NCBI RefSeq assembly: GCF_024696245.1
Contig: NZ_JAILGZ010000077.1
Location: forward strand, 1-34,188
Direction: 5' to 3'
Source: Treponema sp.
GTDB lineage: Bacteria > Spirochaetota > Spirochaetia > Treponematales > Treponemataceae
Length of the DNA: 34,188 bases
Below, in pieces: positions 4,322 to 13,751 of this stretch. Position numbers and translations under genes: made by a program. The notes under the pieces are model-generated. The model saw only the letters and a list, made by a program, of their open reading frames with translations. It ran no database searches and was not told the origin of the DNA. Position 1 is the stretch's first letter; every line of letters starts with the position of its first letter.

Positions 4322-4336
4322 TCAATGGAGTTAAAT

Positions 4337-5377
4337 ATGAGTGACGAAAAAGTAATATTAAAAGCAGAAGACCTTGATGGTTATTTAACTGAAGAAGATC
4401 AGAAAGATTTACAGACCCTTGAAGATATGTATTCAAAAACATATCAGTATTTTGCCAGTGAAGACAAGGCTCAGATAATTCAGAGTTTTGATGCCATGGG
4501 CCATAAGATGCAGGAAATCTGTGCCAAGCATCCTAATATTAAAGTGTATAGTTTTGAGACAGATTATGGTGCACAGGCAGAAGCCAGCCGTGTTATTTCA
4601 AAATTAAGGGATTTAAAAACAGAACATGCAGAATTCCTTTATTACACACAGCGTGCTTTTGAAATGCTTTTCCGTCTTGCCTATACAGACGAGCATTCAG
4701 ATAAAAAGAATCATATTGTTGTAAAAACTCCGGTTGTAAATCCAGTGCAGAATTATGCCGTACATAAGATTCCTGATATTGACGATAAAATCGAAAATTC
4801 AGTTATGTGCGTTATGTTAAGGGGAGCCCTGCTTCCAAGCATGATTATGTCTAAGGAAATCGAAGAATATTCTTCAAAGGGGTATGTTACACCATTTGCT
4901 CTCTTTAAGATTTCCCGTGATGATAAAAGACAGGAAACTGACATGCAGTATATCCTTAACCTTAAGAATTCTTTCTTTGATTTAAAGGAACTTGACGGTA
5001 AGGATTTAATTTTTGCAGACCCTATGAATGCCACAGGTGGATCCCTTGTTACTGTAGTAAAGTATCTTCAGGAAAAGGGAATTAAGCCTAAGAGCATTAA
5101 GTTCTTTAACGTAATTTCTGCATTAAAGGGCAGTATGAGGGTAACCCGTGCCCTTGATAACTGCACCTGTTATACTTTGTGGATGGATCCTGTATTAAAC
5201 CACAAGGCTTATATTATGCCAGGTCTTGGTGATGCAGGAGACCGTCTTAACGGCTGCGACAGCCATGAAACTCCACGTAATATTATTCAGCTTATTGCTG
5301 ATTACGGAAGTAATATTGCCGGCCTTTACCGCAGTCAGCTTAGAAAAATTGAACAGACTGTCCTTGGGAGAATCTAA
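4337..5377 (+). CDS. upp: Uracil phosphoribosyltransferase family protein, long form
   Basis: This is predicted to convert uracil and PRPP to UMP (pyrimidine salvage, cytoplasm). Family signatures lie in the C-terminal two thirds: MLRGALLP (equivalent of the LRAG region), the PRPP loop [12 protein letters not shown], and the uracil-binding segment [13 protein letters not shown]. Ordinary Upp is about 208 residues; this one has 346, with roughly 140 extra residues at the N-terminus that match nothing I recognise. I chose ATG 4337 over the in-frame ATG 4325 because GGAG (4327-4330) overlaps the earlier ATG and is spaced six bases from the later one. It lies between two lipoprotein genes. Family is confident; whether uracil is the true substrate of this long variant is less so. 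Confidence 0.82.
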
Positions 5378-6083: not shown

Positions 6084-7526
6084 TTAATCTTTTTTAGAAG
6101 CAAGATAGTTTCTGTATTTTTCCGAATCAGCTTTAAAGGCAACAATAGGAGAGTCTTCATCTTCGATTGCATGGAAGAGGGACTGTTCACTTTCGTTAAA
6201 AAGTCTTTGTCCGGAAATAAGCCTTAATGCCCTTGTAGAAATTCCTATTGAACAGCGAAGGTCCTTATCCTGATTTTTAATTACTGAGTTTATATTTTTA
6301 AGCATTTCCTGAGCTTTATTTAAAGCCTGAGGTATGTTTAATTCCTGAATTATGGCAGAACAACCGTCTTCTTTATAATTAAAAACAAGGTCATTGAATT
6401 TAACAGCCTGAAGGATTATGCCGCTGATTTTTTTACCACATTCACTGGTCCAGTCAAGGGAAGGTATTCTTATTGTGTAAAGGGCAAGATCCTGTTCACA
6501 GGAAGCAGCCCTTATAAGCTCACTGTCAAGTCTTGGTATCATGTAAGATTCCCAGCCAAAACCTGTGTCCGGAGAAAATAATCCTGCAGGTTCCTGAGGA
6601 AGTTCTTTTTTATCCTCTTCATCTGAAGCCGGGCTTTCTTCTGTATCAATAAGCTCTTCTTCAAATAAATCCTCTTCTGCATCTTCTTCTTTTTCTTCTT
6701 TTTCTTCTTCAGAAATTCTATCAGCAGGAGTTTTTTCTTCAAAAGGATTTTCTTCTTCCCTTGTTTCTTCTTTAATTTCAGGAGGAGTAAAATCAACTTC
6801 TTCTTCATTATTGGATATAAGCTTGTTTTCATTAAAAGGATCTTCAATAATTTCTTCCGGAAGATTTTCTGAAGGGCTTTCCGGCTCATTCTTCAAATCA
6901 GCATCATCTTTTTCTTTGGCAGAAATTTCCAAATCATCATCTTCTTCTGTATAATCCTGGTCTTCCTGGTAATCTTCCTGAGAAAAATCATCTTCTTCAT
7001 CAGAATCATATTTTATTTCCTTAGCTTCTGATGTAAGAACCTTGTCTGCAAAGAACATAAGATGGAATACGATAAAAAGGGTAACTATAAAAATAACAAT
7101 AAAAGCCAGCCTTCCCCTGGTAAATATAACGGAAGGCTTTACGGTATAAACGCTGGCTTCAATAAAAATATCTTTATCCTGGCTGGTTCTTAAAGAATCT
7201 CTTTTTAAAATTGTAAAGGATTTTTGTTTTGTTTTTTCATTATCTGAAGGAAAATTTAAGATTTCCTTTCCTTCATAAAAAAGTTTAATGGACTGAAAAT
7301 TGTTTATAGTACTGGAATTAAGAAAATATCTGTTAAAGGCTCTTGTGCCCGGTTCTTCATTTCTAAGGGTAACACTAAGCTGATGAATAAGGCTGCTGAA
7401 ATATTCAGGGGATTTACTTCTGCCTTTTTGATTTTCGATATAAAGGGAAGAAACAAAAGCTGTAATTGTAATTATATATATAAGGACTGCTGCTGCTGCA
7501 ACAAGGATATTTTTTCTAATTTTCAT
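6084..7526 (-). CDS. Membrane protein with acidic linker and degenerate GGDEF-like domain
   Basis: A 480-residue protein. It has a transmembrane segment at about 8-27, an extracytoplasmic stretch of roughly 110 residues, a second membrane segment near 138-160, a very Glu/Asp-rich linker of about 160 residues, and a C-terminal domain of about 140 residues. The last domain follows the diguanylate-cyclase fold pattern (CSIGISTR followed by an AL..A-type helix), but the signature GGDEF is replaced by KEDGC (codons 6360-6374), and the usual RxxD site five residues upstream is KFND (6390-6401). It is therefore unlikely to make c-di-GMP; binding or scaffolding is possible. I start it at ATG 7526, which overlaps the previous gene by 11 bases, not at the upstream TTG 7562. 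It is the last gene of the four-gene minus-strand run. Confidence 0.75.
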   Translation of the reverse strand: MKIRKNILVAAAAVLIYIITITAFVSSLYIENQKGRSKSPEYFSSLIHQLSVTLRNEEPGTRAFNRYFLNSSTINNFQSIKLFYEGKEILNFPSDNEKTKQKSFTILKRDSLRTSQDKDIFIEASVYTVKPSVIFTRGRLAFIVIFIVTLFIVFHLMFFADKVLTSEAKEIKYDSDEEDDFSQEDYQEDQDYTEEDDDLEISAKEKDDADLKNEPESPSENLPEEIIEDPFNENKLISNNEEEVDFTPPEIKEETREEENPFEEKTPADRISEEEKEEKEEDAEEDLFEEELIDTEESPASDEEDKKELPQEPAGLFSPDTGFGWESYMIPRLDSELIRAASCEQDLALYTIRIPSLDWTSECGKKISGIILQAVKFNDLVFNYKEDGCSAIIQELNIPQALNKAQEMLKNINSVIKNQDKDLRCSIGISTRALRLISGQRLFNESEQSLFHAIEDEDSPIVAFKADSEKYRNYLASKKD

Positions 7527-8955
7527 ATTTCTGATTATAACGGAGGGAATAAGCAAGTGCAAGTTTTAAAAGTTCTTCCTCCGTCCTGTCTCCATTGTAT
7601 TTTTTTAACCAGGCACACATAGGGAAAAATATTTTTTTATTTTCCTCCAGTAATTTTTCCGGAATAAAATCAATTTTTTCCTCAGTGCATGATATCTTAT
7701 TATTATTGAAATCCATTGAAAGCCTCTTGCTTTCTTTTTTAAATCCACAGTTCACAGCCCATTCATTTATTGCCTGTCTGTAATTTTTCATTACTTCAGT
7801 TGTCAGGGCATTATTATTTTCATTATCCTTCACAAGTTCTGTTCTGTACATTAAGGACGAGTATTTTGTTTCTGCAGTAGAAAATCTTACAGCTGTTGAA
7901 TTGTACTGTCTGTCCAGATAAGTTCCACGGGCATAAGCTTTACCCTGAGGATAAGAAAAATCTGCTCCTGCAAAAGTCAGGATTTTAAAGCCGGCCTTAT
8001 AAGCAAAATCACAACAGGCAGCGGTCACAGTTCCACCTGCTGCATTAATCAACGGAAGGCTTTTTCCTGTAAGGGCAAGGGATAAAGGGTGCCCTCCATT
8101 ATAAAAGACAGCCTTATGTCCCCGTTGAATCAGGCTTTTGTATATAGCAGGATTTGTTGATAAATCCAGTATAAAAAGAATCTCTTTTCCAGTCTTTTCT
8201 TTAAGGGGACAGTTATAAAAATGTTCTGCAGAAACCTTTTGAGCGTCTGAACTTAAAACAATATCTGCAATAATTCCTTCTTCAAGTAAAGTAGAAAAGG
8301 CTGTGTCTGCAGCTATTATGGAGGCACTGTCCTTTTTTTCTTTTATATAATCAATTGCCTTTTCAAGTCCTGGACCTGCAGCACAAATAAGTGCTTCTTC
8401 CTTATCTGCCTGGTAATTCCAGCTGACAGCATTTTTAAAATTAACAATGATATTATGCTGCCAGATTTTTCCAAAGTGACTTTGAACTGAAAAGTCACCA
8501 CTTATTTTTTTTAATGCCCTGTGTACTTCTTCATTTATTTTTTCTGTAAGGGCAGGGTTTTCATTCTGCCAGGACCTTAAAGAAGTAAAAGTAAAGTTAT
8601 TATAGGAAATAGGAAAATAATTTTTAAGAACAGCCTCTTCAATATCATCAGGGGTAATAAACCTGACGCTGGGATTTGTGCTGCATTCTTTTGTATCCTT
8701 AAAGTTAAGGCAGTAAGAAAGACTTTCCCTGTCAGCTTCTATTGCAAGAATAAAGGAAGAAGGAAATTGTTTTAAAAGGGCCTTTATATGCATCCCGTTT
8801 CCAATTCCTCCAATAACAAAAAATCCATTCTTTTGATTTTGAGCAAAGTTTTCTGCTTCTAAAGAGGGATTATATTTTGAATTCATTGGTCTTTTACTTA
8901 TAAAGAGGGGAATCTCTTCGCCGGTTTTTGCAGTAATAAAGGAATCGTAAATCAA
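7516..8955 (-). CDS. DUF115 / MptE-like (Maf-type) protein, second of a tandem pair
   Basis: A 479-residue cytoplasmic protein of the DUF115 family (6-hydroxymethylpterin pyrophosphokinase MptE-like fold), which also includes motility accessory (Maf) flagellin glycosyltransferases. The family core is visible at about 187-245: ICAAGPGLEKAIDYI, then IIAADTAFSTLL and IADIVLSSDAQ. A second conserved stretch is AAGGTVTAACCDFAYKAG with FAGADFSYP. The start is an unusual TTG at 8955. It is supported by AAGGA (8964-8968) eight bases upstream and by alignment of its first 40 residues with the neighbouring paralogue. It overlaps the preceding stop by four bases (TTGA). Substrate is unknown; a role in surface or flagellar glycosylation is inferred from family and context only. 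Confidence 0.8.
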   Translation of the reverse strand: MIYDSFITAKTGEEIPLFISKRPMNSKYNPSLEAENFAQNQKNGFFVIGGIGNGMHIKALLKQFPSSFILAIEADRESLSYCLNFKDTKECSTNPSVRFITPDDIEEAVLKNYFPISYNNFTFTSLRSWQNENPALTEKINEEVHRALKKISGDFSVQSHFGKIWQHNIIVNFKNAVSWNYQADKEEALICAAGPGLEKAIDYIKEKKDSASIIAADTAFSTLLEEGIIADIVLSSDAQKVSAEHFYNCPLKEKTGKEILFILDLSTNPAIYKSLIQRGHKAVFYNGGHPLSLALTGKSLPLINAAGGTVTAACCDFAYKAGFKILTFAGADFSYPQGKAYARGTYLDRQYNSTAVRFSTAETKYSSLMYRTELVKDNENNNALTTEVMKNYRQAINEWAVNCGFKKESKRLSMDFNNNKISCTEEKIDFIPEKLLEENKKIFFPMCAWLKKYNGDRTEEELLKLALAYSLRYNQKYEN

Positions 8956-10442
8956 GTTTTTAATCCTTTTTCAAAGGTTGCCTGTATTTCCTTTGCAAAG
9001 TTTTCCATTTCCTGACGGATTTTTTTACCAAGAGTTTCCCTGTCTTCCGGTTGAGAACGTTCAAAAAGAATTTCTTCATTAGGCAGAACGCTTTTTATCC
9101 ATTCAATATCGTCAAGATTTTTCCAGGTTTCTTCCATGAGCATTTTAATTCTGTCGTTTTTTATGATTTCATGGGTAAGGTAAAGGGTTGTTGGTTTTGT
9201 CAGGATTCCAGTGGGAATATGCTGTTTAAATATCTTCCAGTCTACATCGGGAATCTGTCCAAGATTATTTTTATAATCATAGTTGTCACTTAAACGGAAA
9301 ACCCTGTGAAAGAAATTATTACTTGCAAACCATGCCCGGTAAATATCCAGTGCCGGCGAGTTAAAGGTAGATGGTGTAATACGGGTTTCCTGAGTTCTTA
9401 GTCTTGTGTCGTGAATGCAGTCATTAATTTCAAGTTCGTTAGGCTGGGTGTGGCTGAATCCTTTAGAAACACTAAGATCCAGACCGCAGAAAAATACCTC
9501 ACCGCTGGTAATGCTTAAGGCAAAGTCTGCTGCAGTACCGCTGACAGTTCCGTTACGTATAGCTTTAACATTAATGTAGTTACATTTGTCTATAAGTTTT
9601 TCTCCAACTCCGTCGCCATAAGCCACAGGAACAATAGTATGTTCGTTAAGAATCTCTCCGTAACAGGCTCCTTCAAGAGGAAGAACCAGAGGAATGTTGT
9701 GGCGTTTTAAGCCGAACTCAAGATGAAGCTTAGCCCAGTAACCGCCGTCTGTAGAAATACAAACATCTGGAATTATATCTGCATCAATTAATGGAGACAG
9801 GGCAGAAGAAACAGCAACAAGAAAATACTGTTCCCTGTACTGCTTTAAAAAAGGAATTGAAGACTTAAGGCTTGGACCGGAAGCACAGACAATTACAGGA
9901 GAATTGCCTTTAAGGATGTATGCGTTATATTTTGAAAAGAGACAGAAGCGCAGGGTATTTTTAGTCCATCTTTTTGCAAAATATCTTCTGGTATTAAGAA
10001 TTGATTTTGTTTTTATTACAGCCTTTTTAATTTCTTCCCAGACTGCATTGTTTTCTTCTTTAAATGCATTCTGAGCTCCAGGCCATGACCAGAAGAAGCA
10101 GGCGATAATTCCTTCATCTCCCATATAATTAAAGATATCAGTGTTAAGGCTTTTTGTTTTTGAAAAATAGAAAACTTTATCCCAAAGTGAATCAGAGTCT
10201 GCAAAATCATCGCATAATCTTACACAGCAAAGTTTTGAATCAGGATAAAGTTCCCTAAAATAATTTACACAATATGAAATGCCAGGTTCTACAACAAGAA
10301 CAAATTTAGGTTTGAATTTACATATTGAATTTTTTACATATCGTTCTGCTTCTTTAGATGGTTCATATGCAGAATGAAGAGGAAAATTATTTATTTTACA
10401 GGTTTTCTCACCGTTGCCTGCCTGGAAGAATTCAACTGCCAT
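8952..10442 (-). CDS. DUF115 / MptE-like (Maf-type) protein, first of a tandem pair
   Basis: A 496-residue paralogue of the next gene downstream. The nucleotide-sugar-type core starts near residue 180: VIVCASGPSLKSSIPFL, then VAVSSALSPLIDADIIPD with CISTDGGYW. It continues with VSGTAADFALSITSGEVFFCGLDLS. Both paralogues share an N-terminal block (SAYEPSKEAERY here, SKYNPSLEAENF in the other), so they probably arose by duplication and have diverged widely. No signal peptide or membrane segment is seen. It begins 30 bases after the acidic-protein stop. The ATG has only AAGG one base away and AGAGGA fifteen bases away, so the ribosome-binding site is poor and translation may be coupled to the upstream gene. 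Function in glycosylation is inferred. Confidence 0.8.
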   Translation of the reverse strand: MAVEFFQAGNGEKTCKINNFPLHSAYEPSKEAERYVKNSICKFKPKFVLVVEPGISYCVNYFRELYPDSKLCCVRLCDDFADSDSLWDKVFYFSKTKSLNTDIFNYMGDEGIIACFFWSWPGAQNAFKEENNAVWEEIKKAVIKTKSILNTRRYFAKRWTKNTLRFCLFSKYNAYILKGNSPVIVCASGPSLKSSIPFLKQYREQYFLVAVSSALSPLIDADIIPDVCISTDGGYWAKLHLEFGLKRHNIPLVLPLEGACYGEILNEHTIVPVAYGDGVGEKLIDKCNYINVKAIRNGTVSGTAADFALSITSGEVFFCGLDLSVSKGFSHTQPNELEINDCIHDTRLRTQETRITPSTFNSPALDIYRAWFASNNFFHRVFRLSDNYDYKNNLGQIPDVDWKIFKQHIPTGILTKPTTLYLTHEIIKNDRIKMLMEETWKNLDDIEWIKSVLPNEEILFERSQPEDRETLGKKIRQEMENFAKEIQATFEKGLKT

Positions 10443-10472
10443 ACCTTAAAATAACTTTCCTCTTTAATCCTA

Positions 10473-13400
10473 TTATGCTAATCCAAGTTCCTTGAAAAGT
10501 TTTTTATATGTTTCAAACTGTTCTGACTGAGCAAACTCTGTGATTTTTTCTTCAGGCAGACTTTCAAGAAGCTGATCCATATAAGAAAGTACAGATTTTA
10601 TTTCTTCTTTCATTCCTTCAGGAATATCATTAGCTGAAGAAGCATCATTTTTATTTTCTACATCTGCTTCTTCAACTTCTACAGCCTGAGTTTCTTCATT
10701 GCTGTCGTCTGAATCTGAATCATCACTTCTGGAATCCCACTGATCAAATACCTGATTTACAGGATCTTCACTAATGCCTTTTTCCAGTTCTTCGTCTTCT
10801 TCTTCCTTAAAGAGTTCGATTGGTTTAGAAAGAGATTCAATTGAAGGAGAAAGATCATCATCTTCTGTTTCTTCTTCAGGTGCGTCTACTTCTCCAAGTC
10901 CTGGCTGGTCTACTGTAACAAGATCAGATAAGTCATCTTCCTGTACGGCAGGTGCTGCACTTTCATCTTCTTCTTCGATAAGATCTGATGAAGAAGCTTC
11001 TACAATAAGATCATCAACTTTTGGTACAGAAATTTCTTCCTGACTTTCTGAATCAGCTTGTGTATCATCCTGACTTTCATCAAATACAGGTTCTTCAAGC
11101 TTTTCATTGTCAAAGTTCATGGAAAGATTTTCTTCATTTTCTGTATCATCCTGGCTCTCATTGTCAGTAACTGCTTCTTCCGGAGGGGTAAGCTCTGCTG
11201 TGTTAAGGATATTGTTAAGTTCTTCACCACTTAAAGCGATAGTGTCATCTTCGTCATTGTCAGAGAAGAAGCCTGAATTATCTTCCTTGCTGTCTCCCGG
11301 AAGAGGAATATCAACATCAGAAAGTGACTCCTCTGCTGTATGACTTACAGCAGCCGGCTCTGCATTTTTAAGTTCTTCAAATTCAGTCTTAAGACTTGAA
11401 ATCTCTGATTTAAGGCTTGCAATCTGTGATGCAATGTCTTTAAGGAGACTGTTTGCATCAAAATCTGAAGAAGCATTCTCTTTTACAGGAGAAGGAGCTT
11501 TTGCTTCTGCTGCAGGAGCAGGAGTAACTGTATCCTGAACTTCATTGTCTTCTGTAATGAACTGTTCTTTAATGAAAACGCTGTAAACTTTCTTTTCATC
11601 ATTTTCATCATTTTCATCATTTTCATCATCTGGAATTGAAACTTCACTCATTTGCTCTTCGACTTCCTTATCCTGAGATTCAAGAGATGCTGCCTCTTCT
11701 TCAAATGTATCTGGTATAGTTTTTTCACTTTCTGTAACAGCTGCAGATTCAAAAGAAAGAGCAGGGAAGCTTTCTTCTGCCTGTGCATTTAATGTTGAAT
11801 CAATGTCGTCTTCTTCATTACTGCTTACATCAACGTTTACTTCTTCAGTTTCTGTAGAAGTGTCTTTGCTTTCTTCAAAACCTTCTGAAGTAAAGATGTC
11901 TTCTGCTGCGTCTGTGAGGGATGGTTCCTGAAAGGAATAGCTCCCGTCATCACTGCTTTCTGCTGAATCAGCTGTTTCTTCTGTAACAGGATTTTCCTCA
12001 AGAACAGGTTCTTCTGCAAAGCTCTCTTCAGAAAGTGAACTTTCTTCTTCTGGAATATCCGTAACGGTATCTGCAATTGTATCTTCGACAGCAGGACTTT
12101 CTTCAGCAAAAGAATTATCTTCAAGAACAGGTTCTTCTGTAAGTGTATTTTCAGAAGAGTCATCCTGTACTGCAGGTTCATCAAGGAAAGAAGTATCAAT
12201 GTCACTTATATCAAATGAGTCTTCCTTGCTGTCTTCATTTTCTACAGGTATATCTGTTGAAGCATCTTCTTCCGGAACTTCAATTGAAGCAACATCAAGA
12301 CCAGATACATCTGCTTCTGAAACATCATCTGATACTGCTTCTTCTTCTACGGAAGTTTCGTCAAAAGATGGTGTATCTTCAATAGCTCCAGTTTCTTCAA
12401 GTACAGGGCTTTCATCTGCAAGAGTGCTTTCTGCAACTGGTGTTTCGTCTACTACAAGATCTTCAAAGTTAAAGTCATCCTGAGTTTCTTCTGCAGCAAA
12501 CTGATTTTCTTCAAATACAGGTTCATCAAGATCAAAGGTTTCTTCTGATTCTGCAGTAAGGTTTTCTCCCCTGTCTGAAATATCAGTATCAGCAAAAGGA
12601 TTTTCTTCTGTTTCTGTATTTTCTTCTGTTATTACAGGATTTTCAAAAGAGTCAGTGTTAAAGCTGTCATCACTACCGCTTACATCGCTTTCATCCTGGA
12701 ATACAGCCATTTCACTGTCATCATCTGATGGAAGGCTTGATTCTGTAACAGGGGTTTCTTCGATTACCGGATTTTCTTCTGCTGCAGGGCTTTCTGTTAA
12801 AGCAGGACTTTCCTCTCCAAAGTCAACGCCGTCAAGAAGACTGTCTACATCAAAGTCATCATCAGGAGCGGACATTGGTGCATCTTCTTTTGTTGCAGAA
12901 GGAGTATCACTTTCTATAACTGTATCAACTGTAATTTCATCTTCTTCATCTGAAGCAGTTTCTGCAATTGCAGGTGTTTCACTGTCAGAATCAGTTTCTA
13001 CATTCATTTCAAAATCAACAGGACCTTCTTCTTTCTTTTCTTCGATTTTATCAGCCTGGGTACCTGCATCATCATCATTGAACCCAAATTCAGAAAGATC
13101 TACGCTTTCTCCTGAATCAGATTTCTTTTCTTCTGAAGGACTGTCGTCGCCAAAACCAAATTCAGAAAGGTCAACGCTTTCTCCCTGGTCAGAAGACTGG
13201 CTTTTATTATCATCTCCAAAGAGTGCATCAAAGTCATCATTTGCAAATTCTTCAGAAGCTTCTTCCTGAGGAATGTCAGCAAATTTTTCTTCATCAGGGG
13301 TATCATCAAAGCTTAAGTCAATATCAAGGGCTTCTTCGTTTTCTGTTGTTTCAGCAGCTTTTTCTTCTTCTGCTTCTGTTTCAAAACCACCGTCAAGGAA

Positions 13401-13751
13401 GTCATCAAGGGAAACTTCTCCTGAATCATTTGCTGCAGGAGGCTGGCTTTCTTCTGCTGCCTGAGGTGCAGGGGAAAGGTCTTCGTTAGGATCTGTAAAG
13501 TCCCCGTCCATAAATGCATCCAGGGATATTTCTTCTTCACCTGAAGTTGAGTTTGTATCAGCAGAACCGGCCGCTTCTGTTTCCTGTTCCATAGTAGACT
13601 GAGCAGCCTTATCAAGGAATGAAAGGTCATTCAGTTCGTCAGGAAGGTCATTTATATTTTCTGTATCGACGCCATCATCAGCTGGAGCTGAGTTTTTAAT
13701 CCAGACGCCGTATTCGTCAAGTTCAGTTTTTTTATCTGATGATTCGTTCAT
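10473..13751 (-). CDS. Large acidic low-complexity repeat protein
   Basis: A 1092-residue protein with a very high Glu, Asp and Ser content and almost no Trp or Cys, and no signal peptide or membrane segment. It is probably cytoplasmic and mostly disordered. Short hydrophobic islands recur in the acidic sea: ISLDAFMDGDF, VSLDDFLDGGF, VDLSEFGFGDD, VDLSEFGFNDD. Hundreds of residues of EEPVLEE/EENPV-type repeats follow. A coiled coil lies at about 760-797 (LKSEISSLKTEFEELKN). The chain ends in a compact, likely folded helical segment of about 45 residues (YMDQLLESLPEEKITEF). The N-terminal YGVWIKNSAP block also looks ordered. ATG 13751 has AAGGGG eight bases upstream. It heads a run with two DUF115 genes and a degenerate-GGDEF gene. 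I do not recognise a function. Confidence 0.8.
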   Translation of the reverse strand: MNESSDKKTELDEYGVWIKNSAPADDGVDTENINDLPDELNDLSFLDKAAQSTMEQETEAAGSADTNSTSGEEEISLDAFMDGDFTDPNEDLSPAPQAAEESQPPAANDSGEVSLDDFLDGGFETEAEEEKAAETTENEEALDIDLSFDDTPDEEKFADIPQEEASEEFANDDFDALFGDDNKSQSSDQGESVDLSEFGFGDDSPSEEKKSDSGESVDLSEFGFNDDDAGTQADKIEEKKEEGPVDFEMNVETDSDSETPAIAETASDEEDEITVDTVIESDTPSATKEDAPMSAPDDDFDVDSLLDGVDFGEESPALTESPAAEENPVIEETPVTESSLPSDDDSEMAVFQDESDVSGSDDSFNTDSFENPVITEENTETEENPFADTDISDRGENLTAESEETFDLDEPVFEENQFAAEETQDDFNFEDLVVDETPVAESTLADESPVLEETGAIEDTPSFDETSVEEEAVSDDVSEADVSGLDVASIEVPEEDASTDIPVENEDSKEDSFDISDIDTSFLDEPAVQDDSSENTLTEEPVLEDNSFAEESPAVEDTIADTVTDIPEEESSLSEESFAEEPVLEENPVTEETADSAESSDDGSYSFQEPSLTDAAEDIFTSEGFEESKDTSTETEEVNVDVSSNEEDDIDSTLNAQAEESFPALSFESAAVTESEKTIPDTFEEEAASLESQDKEVEEQMSEVSIPDDENDENDENDEKKVYSVFIKEQFITEDNEVQDTVTPAPAAEAKAPSPVKENASSDFDANSLLKDIASQIASLKSEISSLKTEFEELKNAEPAAVSHTAEESLSDVDIPLPGDSKEDNSGFFSDNDEDDTIALSGEELNNILNTAELTPPEEAVTDNESQDDTENEENLSMNFDNEKLEEPVFDESQDDTQADSESQEEISVPKVDDLIVEASSSDLIEEEDESAAPAVQEDDLSDLVTVDQPGLGEVDAPEEETEDDDLSPSIESLSKPIELFKEEEDEELEKGISEDPVNQVFDQWDSRSDDSDSDDSNEETQAVEVEEADVENKNDASSANDIPEGMKEEIKSVLSYMDQLLESLPEEKITEFAQSEQFETYKKLFKELGLA
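11593..11628 (-). repeat. Four tandem 9-base units coding DEN/DEK
   Basis: On the + strand TTTTCATCA is repeated four times without error, giving the DENDENDENDEK segment of the acidic protein. Being in frame, slippage would change length without breaking the gene. Confidence 0.9.

Follow-up and report, generated by a model that had tools for sequence, protein, structure and literature searches.

A spirochaete gene cluster with an acidic, largely disordered protein and two Maf-like proteins: a candidate module for flagellin glycosylation

Four closely packed genes in a Treponema genome raise the question of why an acidic, largely disordered protein, two Maf-like proteins and a membrane protein should be encoded together. 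The window analysed here, a 34,188-nucleotide stretch that represents contig C76 of the Treponemataceae-type genome G000 (nearest relative, G091), carries these genes on its minus strand, where the list of open reading frames (ORFs) places them from 13751 down to 6084 in the order D-A-B-C. The cluster's first gene, D (10473-13751), encodes 1092 aa and was defined from the ORF list and its orthologues. It is followed by A (8952-10442, 496 aa) and B (7516-8955, 479 aa, with a TTG start), both DUF115/MptE-like, and then by C (6084-7526), a membrane protein with a degenerate GGDEF domain characterised from the ORF list, Pfam, an AlphaFold model and fold comparison. C is counted from the ATG at 7526, giving 480 aa; the mechanical ORF start is 7562. 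D and A are separated by 30 bp, A and B overlap by 4 bp and B and C by 11 bp, and the ORF coordinates return the same values as those claimed in a sequence-only reading of this DNA. Upstream of D, a 300-bp gap precedes a divergent DivIC-like gene. An Rfam search of the window gave no match, and an opposite-strand ORF within D (12655-13269) seems to be a spurious product of that gene's composition. Elsewhere in the window, 4325-5377 encodes a UPRTase-like protein of 350 aa with a long N-terminal extension, whose 98% identity to its G091 orthologue is far above that of its neighbours.

The cluster is not a local oddity, being shared by nearly all spirochaetes that swim, the agent of syphilis among them. 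The proposal that its genes belong together had been made dependent on their conservation in other treponemes, and there D, A and B occur together in all 40 Treponemataceae loci fetched, with C in 39 of them, in the order D-(X)-A-B-C. Here X is a fifth gene, an extra same-strand ORF of usually 260-335 aa that lies between D and A in 33 of the 40 loci. It is missing from this position in the window, in five relatives (L065-L069) and in L100 and L102. Searching for X elsewhere in the window's clade found none in G000, G091, G035, G094, G078, G088 or G073; the same search gave 1e-41 in T. pallidum-type and 1e-68 in T. denticola-type genomes.

Among 100 genomes of the family, A found matches in 95 and B in 96, counts that take in other DUF115 genes too; the strong matches to A and B are adjacent and in unchanged order in most of the 100. 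Flanking genes are often kept in Treponemataceae as well (SmpB, Sua5, DivIC-like, ileS), so adjacency within the family is partly general synteny, and loci outside it were therefore compared. D followed by A and B recurs with different flanks, both elsewhere in the class, in further families and orders (L145, L147-L152), and beyond it (L136, L155, L280). Within a named set of 80 loci, fetched from GTDB genomes by the D C-terminal domain and overlapping in species with the 40-locus set, A and B follow D in 53 of the 58 loci with at least 5.5 kb downstream of D. Among the species represented are Treponema putidum, Brucepastera parasyntrophica, Gracilinema caldarium and Breznakiella homolactica. 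Of the 80 loci, 79 are titled spirochaete or unclassified bacterium; the exception, L233, is a 'Thermoplasmata' archaeon MAG contig that carries a spirochaete-type D and is probably mis-binned.

The genome of T. pallidum is strongly reduced, and all five genes are present, at 192564-199665, in genome G020, which we take to be T. pallidum Nichols. A of G020 encodes 470 aa (195453-196865). In strain Chicago, TP0177 is listed as a hypothetical protein of 470 aa encoded on the reverse strand at 195519-196931 (PMC3373638); because coordinates and length fit, A corresponds to TP0177, and D therefore to TP0179 by gene order. The same published coordinates rule out an assignment of the cluster to TP0177-TP0181. 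The hypothetical protein tp0179 has accumulated fixed non-synonymous differences between syphilis lineages (PMC11371664). A literature search under the names TP0177-TP0181 returned nothing on function, and no description of D was found.

That D is acidic, as the sequence-only reading had it, is borne out by its composition of 33% Asp plus Glu and only 3.8% Lys plus Arg; Ser plus Thr make up 18%. Between its ends the chain is acidic and of low complexity, and four elements are conserved along it: a YGVW motif, a coiled coil, a ETIALTGDELDNIL motif and a C-terminal domain of about 45 residues. The first appears in the window as LDEYGVWIK (13695-13721, minus strand, as are all features of D; aa 11-19), and a YGVW-type motif is found in 96 of 108 D orthologues against about 1 expected. 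The coiled-coil segment, SLLKDIASQIASLKSEISSLKTEFEELKN (11364-11450; aa 768-796), was recognised by its heptad-like pattern, and a segment of this kind lies upstream of the central motif in 88 of 97 orthologues. The central motif itself, GFFSDNDEDDTIALSGEELNNILNTAE in the window (11193-11273; aa 827-853), was delimited by orthologue comparison and regular expression; it is of LSxxEL type, typically GFF..DDETIALTGDELDNILNTADFTEE, in the 97 D proteins examined. Its regular expression matched 80 times in the 108 orthologues and 0.04 times were expected after shuffling, so the motif is not due to chance. It is single in most Treponemataceae, and repeated six times in the D of L281 (9901-11763) and four times in that of L284 (9690-11312). 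Repeated short hydrophobic islands had also been claimed for D. Sequence and regular expression do pick out ISLDAF, VSLDDF and, twice, VDLSEF (13086-13529; aa 75-222), a few SLDDF-type motifs of which two in the window match by regular expression, but the rest of the pattern is one conserved DDTIALSGEELNNILNTAE motif plus the coiled coil.

The C-terminal domain (EEIKSVLSYMDQLLESLPEEKITEFAQSEQFETYKKLFKELGLA, 10476-10619), defined from alignments, is 60-79% identical to the first sequence of the aligned family set. Of 393 Spirochaetota genomes, 273 contain it, almost always in one copy, and a broader D profile is positive in 60 of 67 panel genomes; these counts, like the other presence and absence counts across spirochaete genomes given here, are not phylogenetically independent. 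A candidate second copy in the window's own genome proved to be just a marginal match (E 0.007, G000:C8). The central motif was also considered as a mimic of the N-terminal CheY-binding peptide of FliM (LSQDEIDALL-type) and set aside as such: the similarity is not significant, being equalled by 2-11% of background proteins with BLOSUM scoring and typically by about 13% with a D-motif profile. In three non-flagellate genomes, all without FliS, FliM and DUF115, D is a stub of 206-212 aa (L282, 10006-10644; L283, 10773-11393; L144, 5886-6509) that keeps the coiled coil and C-terminal domain and has no central motif. These stubs suggest either a second, flagellum-independent role of that part of D or slow decay.

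Both proteins that had been called Maf-like belong to the DUF115 family, with PF01973 (MptE-like) scores of 83.6 bits for A (1.8e-23; domain at 9462-9914) and 115 bits for B (4.1e-33; 7945-8418) against a curated cut-off of 34.6. B further matches FlagModPseD at 2.1e-18, yet below cut-off. The GPxL loop and GxD motif of the MptE/Maf domain are kept in A and B alike, and the G, P, L and Asp residues of these motifs are 87-100% conserved in the two sets. All nine other DUF115/Maf proteins in the alignment share the His that follows GxD, as do all aligned A, whereas every aligned B has Tyr at this position. By sequence, the closest solved structures are archaeal MptE for both proteins and then Maf 5mu5 for B. 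The Maf N-terminal domain PF20157 gave no match in A or B at E<=0.1; the long DUF115 protein of the window's genome has a sub-cut-off match (0.00052).

Identity to G091 is 58% for B and 87% for A, an unexpected difference between clustered genes that overlap; replacement by recombination or fast evolution of B could account for it. In flagellate panel genomes there are usually one or two DUF115 genes more, some of them about 600 aa long. In two distant spirochaetes, a Maf-like gene of about this length overlaps or abuts a gene for a penicillin-binding protein (transpeptidase plus PASTA): at L266 (7035-10782, contig C4 of G000, overlapping) and L271 (8805-12568). The fourth DUF115 gene of G000 (L267, 6734-8392, contig C13) is flanked by an FGE-sulfatase-type gene and a SurA-like/PPIase gene, and a SurA-like gene precedes a DUF115 gene in L277 too.

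The neighbours of D and the company that DUF115 keeps across the phylum point to flagella. In Brevinematales-type genomes (L158, L285, L139, L157), D has FliS as its immediate upstream neighbour, and in L158 and L285 the FliS-D pair is followed by a GAF+GGDEF gene and FapA. In another family (L278), a DUF115 gene stands directly beside FliS. DUF115 is absent from 8 of the 67 panel genomes, namely two flagellate genomes of panel family f6, which we read as Borreliaceae-type, and six genomes without FliS. In 65 of the 67, the presence or absence of DUF115 coincides with that of a strong NeuB match (exceptions, G417 and G123), and flagella without DUF115 and NeuB occur in the panel only in the Borreliaceae-type genomes. 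The distribution of D is the DUF115/NeuB pattern, save for the stubs in three non-flagellates and for G315 and G208, both with DUF115 and NeuB, in which the broader profile detected no D. Flagellin modification by such enzymes has precedents: in Aeromonas, cytoplasmic glycosylation of flagellin by Maf precedes its transfer to FlaJ, the FliS homologue (PMC4065374). Among spirochaetes, the FlaBs of T. denticola bear a 450.2 Da glycan on which filament assembly and motility depend (PMC9481697), and cryo-EM indicates flagellin glycosylation in Leptospira (PMC13144727). We found no paper naming the transferase locus for the spirochaete flagellin glycan.

From the conservation of the cluster, the FliS and FapA neighbours, the joint distribution of DUF115, NeuB and flagella, and the MptE/Maf motifs that are kept, we infer a spirochaete-specific module for O-glycosylation of flagellin (FlaB), which would act in the cytoplasm before export and be organised by scaffold D. 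We assign this reading a probability of about 0.5. It is supported by the non-flagellates with D, since these keep just the stub without the central motif. A and B would be paralogous glycosyltransferases of the Maf family (DUF115), with the Maf-type His kept in A and B more diverged, and their donor would be of the nonulosonic-acid type. The conserved elements of D, including the ETIALTGDELDNIL motif and the C-terminal helical domain, may hold the transferases together, and probably flagellin and FliS too. With its two predicted transmembrane helices, periplasmic domain and inactive GGDEF domain, C could anchor the complex to the inner membrane close to the export apparatus or gate it there, and X would in most relatives add a cytoplasmic regulatory or docking subunit. 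The sequence-only reading had proposed glycosylation of flagellar or surface proteins by a possibly nucleotide-responsive complex; of this, the flagellin version fits the FliS and FapA neighbours and the phylogenetic distribution, and nucleotide response in the sense of c-di-GMP finds no support. That reading was largely right on anatomy and right in part on function, and was incomplete in that it had neither the fifth gene X, nor the conserved elements of D, nor D as a phylum-wide core.

The main weakness of the flagellin reading lies in the additional DUF115 genes of most genomes, one of which could be the flagellin transferase; the lack of detectable PF20157 in A and B and the undetected D of G315 and G208 also count against it. 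The module might instead glycosylate a non-flagellin target, such as an envelope or flagellar sheath protein or D itself, leaving flagellin to the Mafs of about 600 aa. The further DUF115 genes in most panel genomes would suit such a division, as would the shorter length of A and B, their missing Maf N-domain and the Ser/Thr richness of D. Yet in other lineages FliS adjoins D or a DUF115 gene, and DUF115 loss tracks the loss of flagella with the exception of the Borreliaceae-type genomes, and we regard a non-flagellin target as possible but rather unlikely. It is also doubtful, in our judgement, that D, X and C make up a scaffold, for flagellar assembly or at the pole, that serves chiefly to organise flagellar export or placement, with the DUF115 enzymes as passengers in part of the phylum. 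D is more widely spread than its linkage to A and B, it is paired with GAF proteins away from any nearby DUF115 gene in L281, L284, L198 and L158, and it has FapA and FliS as neighbours, all of which a scaffold of this kind would accommodate. However, D is missing from the flagellate Borreliaceae-type genomes, which are also without DUF115 and NeuB, so there D follows glycosylation rather than flagella.

The remaining components, C and X, each contain a domain whose modelled fold resembles that of GGDEF proteins. In its AlphaFold model, C begins with a long helix at the N-terminus, followed in turn by an alpha/beta domain, another long helix, a disordered stretch of about 150 residues and, at the C-terminus, a confidently modelled domain. 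The two helices, presumably transmembrane, flank a small periplasmic domain (7041-7526, minus strand like the rest of C; pLDDT mostly 81-96), the acidic disordered linker follows (6594-7040; pLDDT mostly below 55), and the C-terminal domain (6126-6593) is a degenerate GGDEF domain by model, fold and motif counts, its motif replaced by KEDGC here and by GxDGF in the consensus. For the window's C, the GGDEF match falls short of the curated threshold (Pfam, 13.7 bits; TIGR00254, E 0.0029), and 19 of 30 C orthologues match Pfam GGDEF, the best at 1.1e-8. Compared with GGDEF structures, the modelled domain gives VIA Z 17-20, and its top two matches reach Z of about 19-20 at rmsd 2.3-3.4 over 150-152 residues. 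The claim of a membrane protein with an inactive GGDEF-like domain agrees with this fold and with the absence of the GG(D/E)EF catalytic motif from 40 of 40 C proteins.

For X, the T. putidum model (mean pLDDT 87.7) has two domains, the first resembling GAF and the second GGDEF, each with Z of about 9-10; the second matches the GGDEF domain of PelD with Z 9.5 at 3.4 A over 119 residues. Pfam GAF and GGDEF had no match in 19 X proteins, profile comparison of X with C revealed no sequence-level relationship, and profile comparison for a PelD-like arrangement of GAF and degenerate GGDEF was weak. In loci from outside the class, D is often followed by a gene in which GAF or GAF+GGDEF can be recognised (L158, L285, L281, L284, L198, L280), and the modelled assignment of X as GAF plus degenerate GGDEF is thereby supported by position and fold, not by sequence. 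Such resemblances, to GAF and to the GGDEF domain of PelD in X and to the GGDEF fold in C, could be taken to mean that C and X are PelD-like c-di-GMP receptors that switch the transferases on and off. We consider this very improbable, as the RxxD I-site before the GGDEF position is present in just 1 of 40 C proteins and the GGDEF motif in none, which also speaks against the nucleotide-responsive complex proposed earlier, in its c-di-GMP sense.

Under the flagellin reading, the cluster represents a concrete candidate locus for spirochaete flagellin glycosylation, and one that is present in T. pallidum. More tentatively, we speculate that D is an undescribed, phylum-wide multivalent scaffold, in which ETIALTGDELDNIL-type motifs, single or repeated along its acidic disordered chain, would bring the enzymes that modify flagellin together with the FliS hand-over in one assembly. 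Inactive GGDEF/GAF proteins would tether this assembly, and only glycosylated flagellin would be exported. The cluster itself would also illustrate clearly how degenerate GGDEF proteins can be retained for scaffolding, and how a disordered protein can keep an exact set of elements throughout a phylum.

Several known systems share parts of this arrangement. The C-terminal domain of C has the fold of diguanylate cyclases (PleD, DgcB, GcbC; Z up to 19.9), but has lost the catalytic motif in all 40 orthologues checked. PelD, a GAF plus degenerate GGDEF regulator of Pel polysaccharide synthesis, resembles X as modelled, and both the PelD system and the D-A-B-C cluster pair a degenerate GGDEF protein with glycosyltransferases. 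Unlike in PelD, the membrane anchor here resides in a separate protein, C, the RxxD I-site is kept in 1 of 40 C proteins, and there is no polysaccharide synthase. Archaeal MptE (6-hydroxymethyl-7,8-dihydropterin pyrophosphokinase, 8sd5) is the best solved-structure match by sequence (E 0.00023 for B, 0.055 for A); it is a stand-alone pterin enzyme of about 240 aa, whereas A and B have a large N-terminal region and a flagellar and glycosylation distribution. In contrast to the Maf flagellin glycosyltransferases (Aeromonas Maf1, 5mu5, Clostridium Maf), A and B are two short tandem paralogues with no detectable Maf N-domain and with Tyr for His in B, and we know of no described Maf locus with companions such as the acidic protein D and membrane protein C. 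Nevertheless, A and B share with these PF01973 proteins the MptE-like domain, the GPxL loop and GxD, and, like Maf, their family occurs together with NeuB and flagella and has FliS as a neighbour in some spirochaetes.
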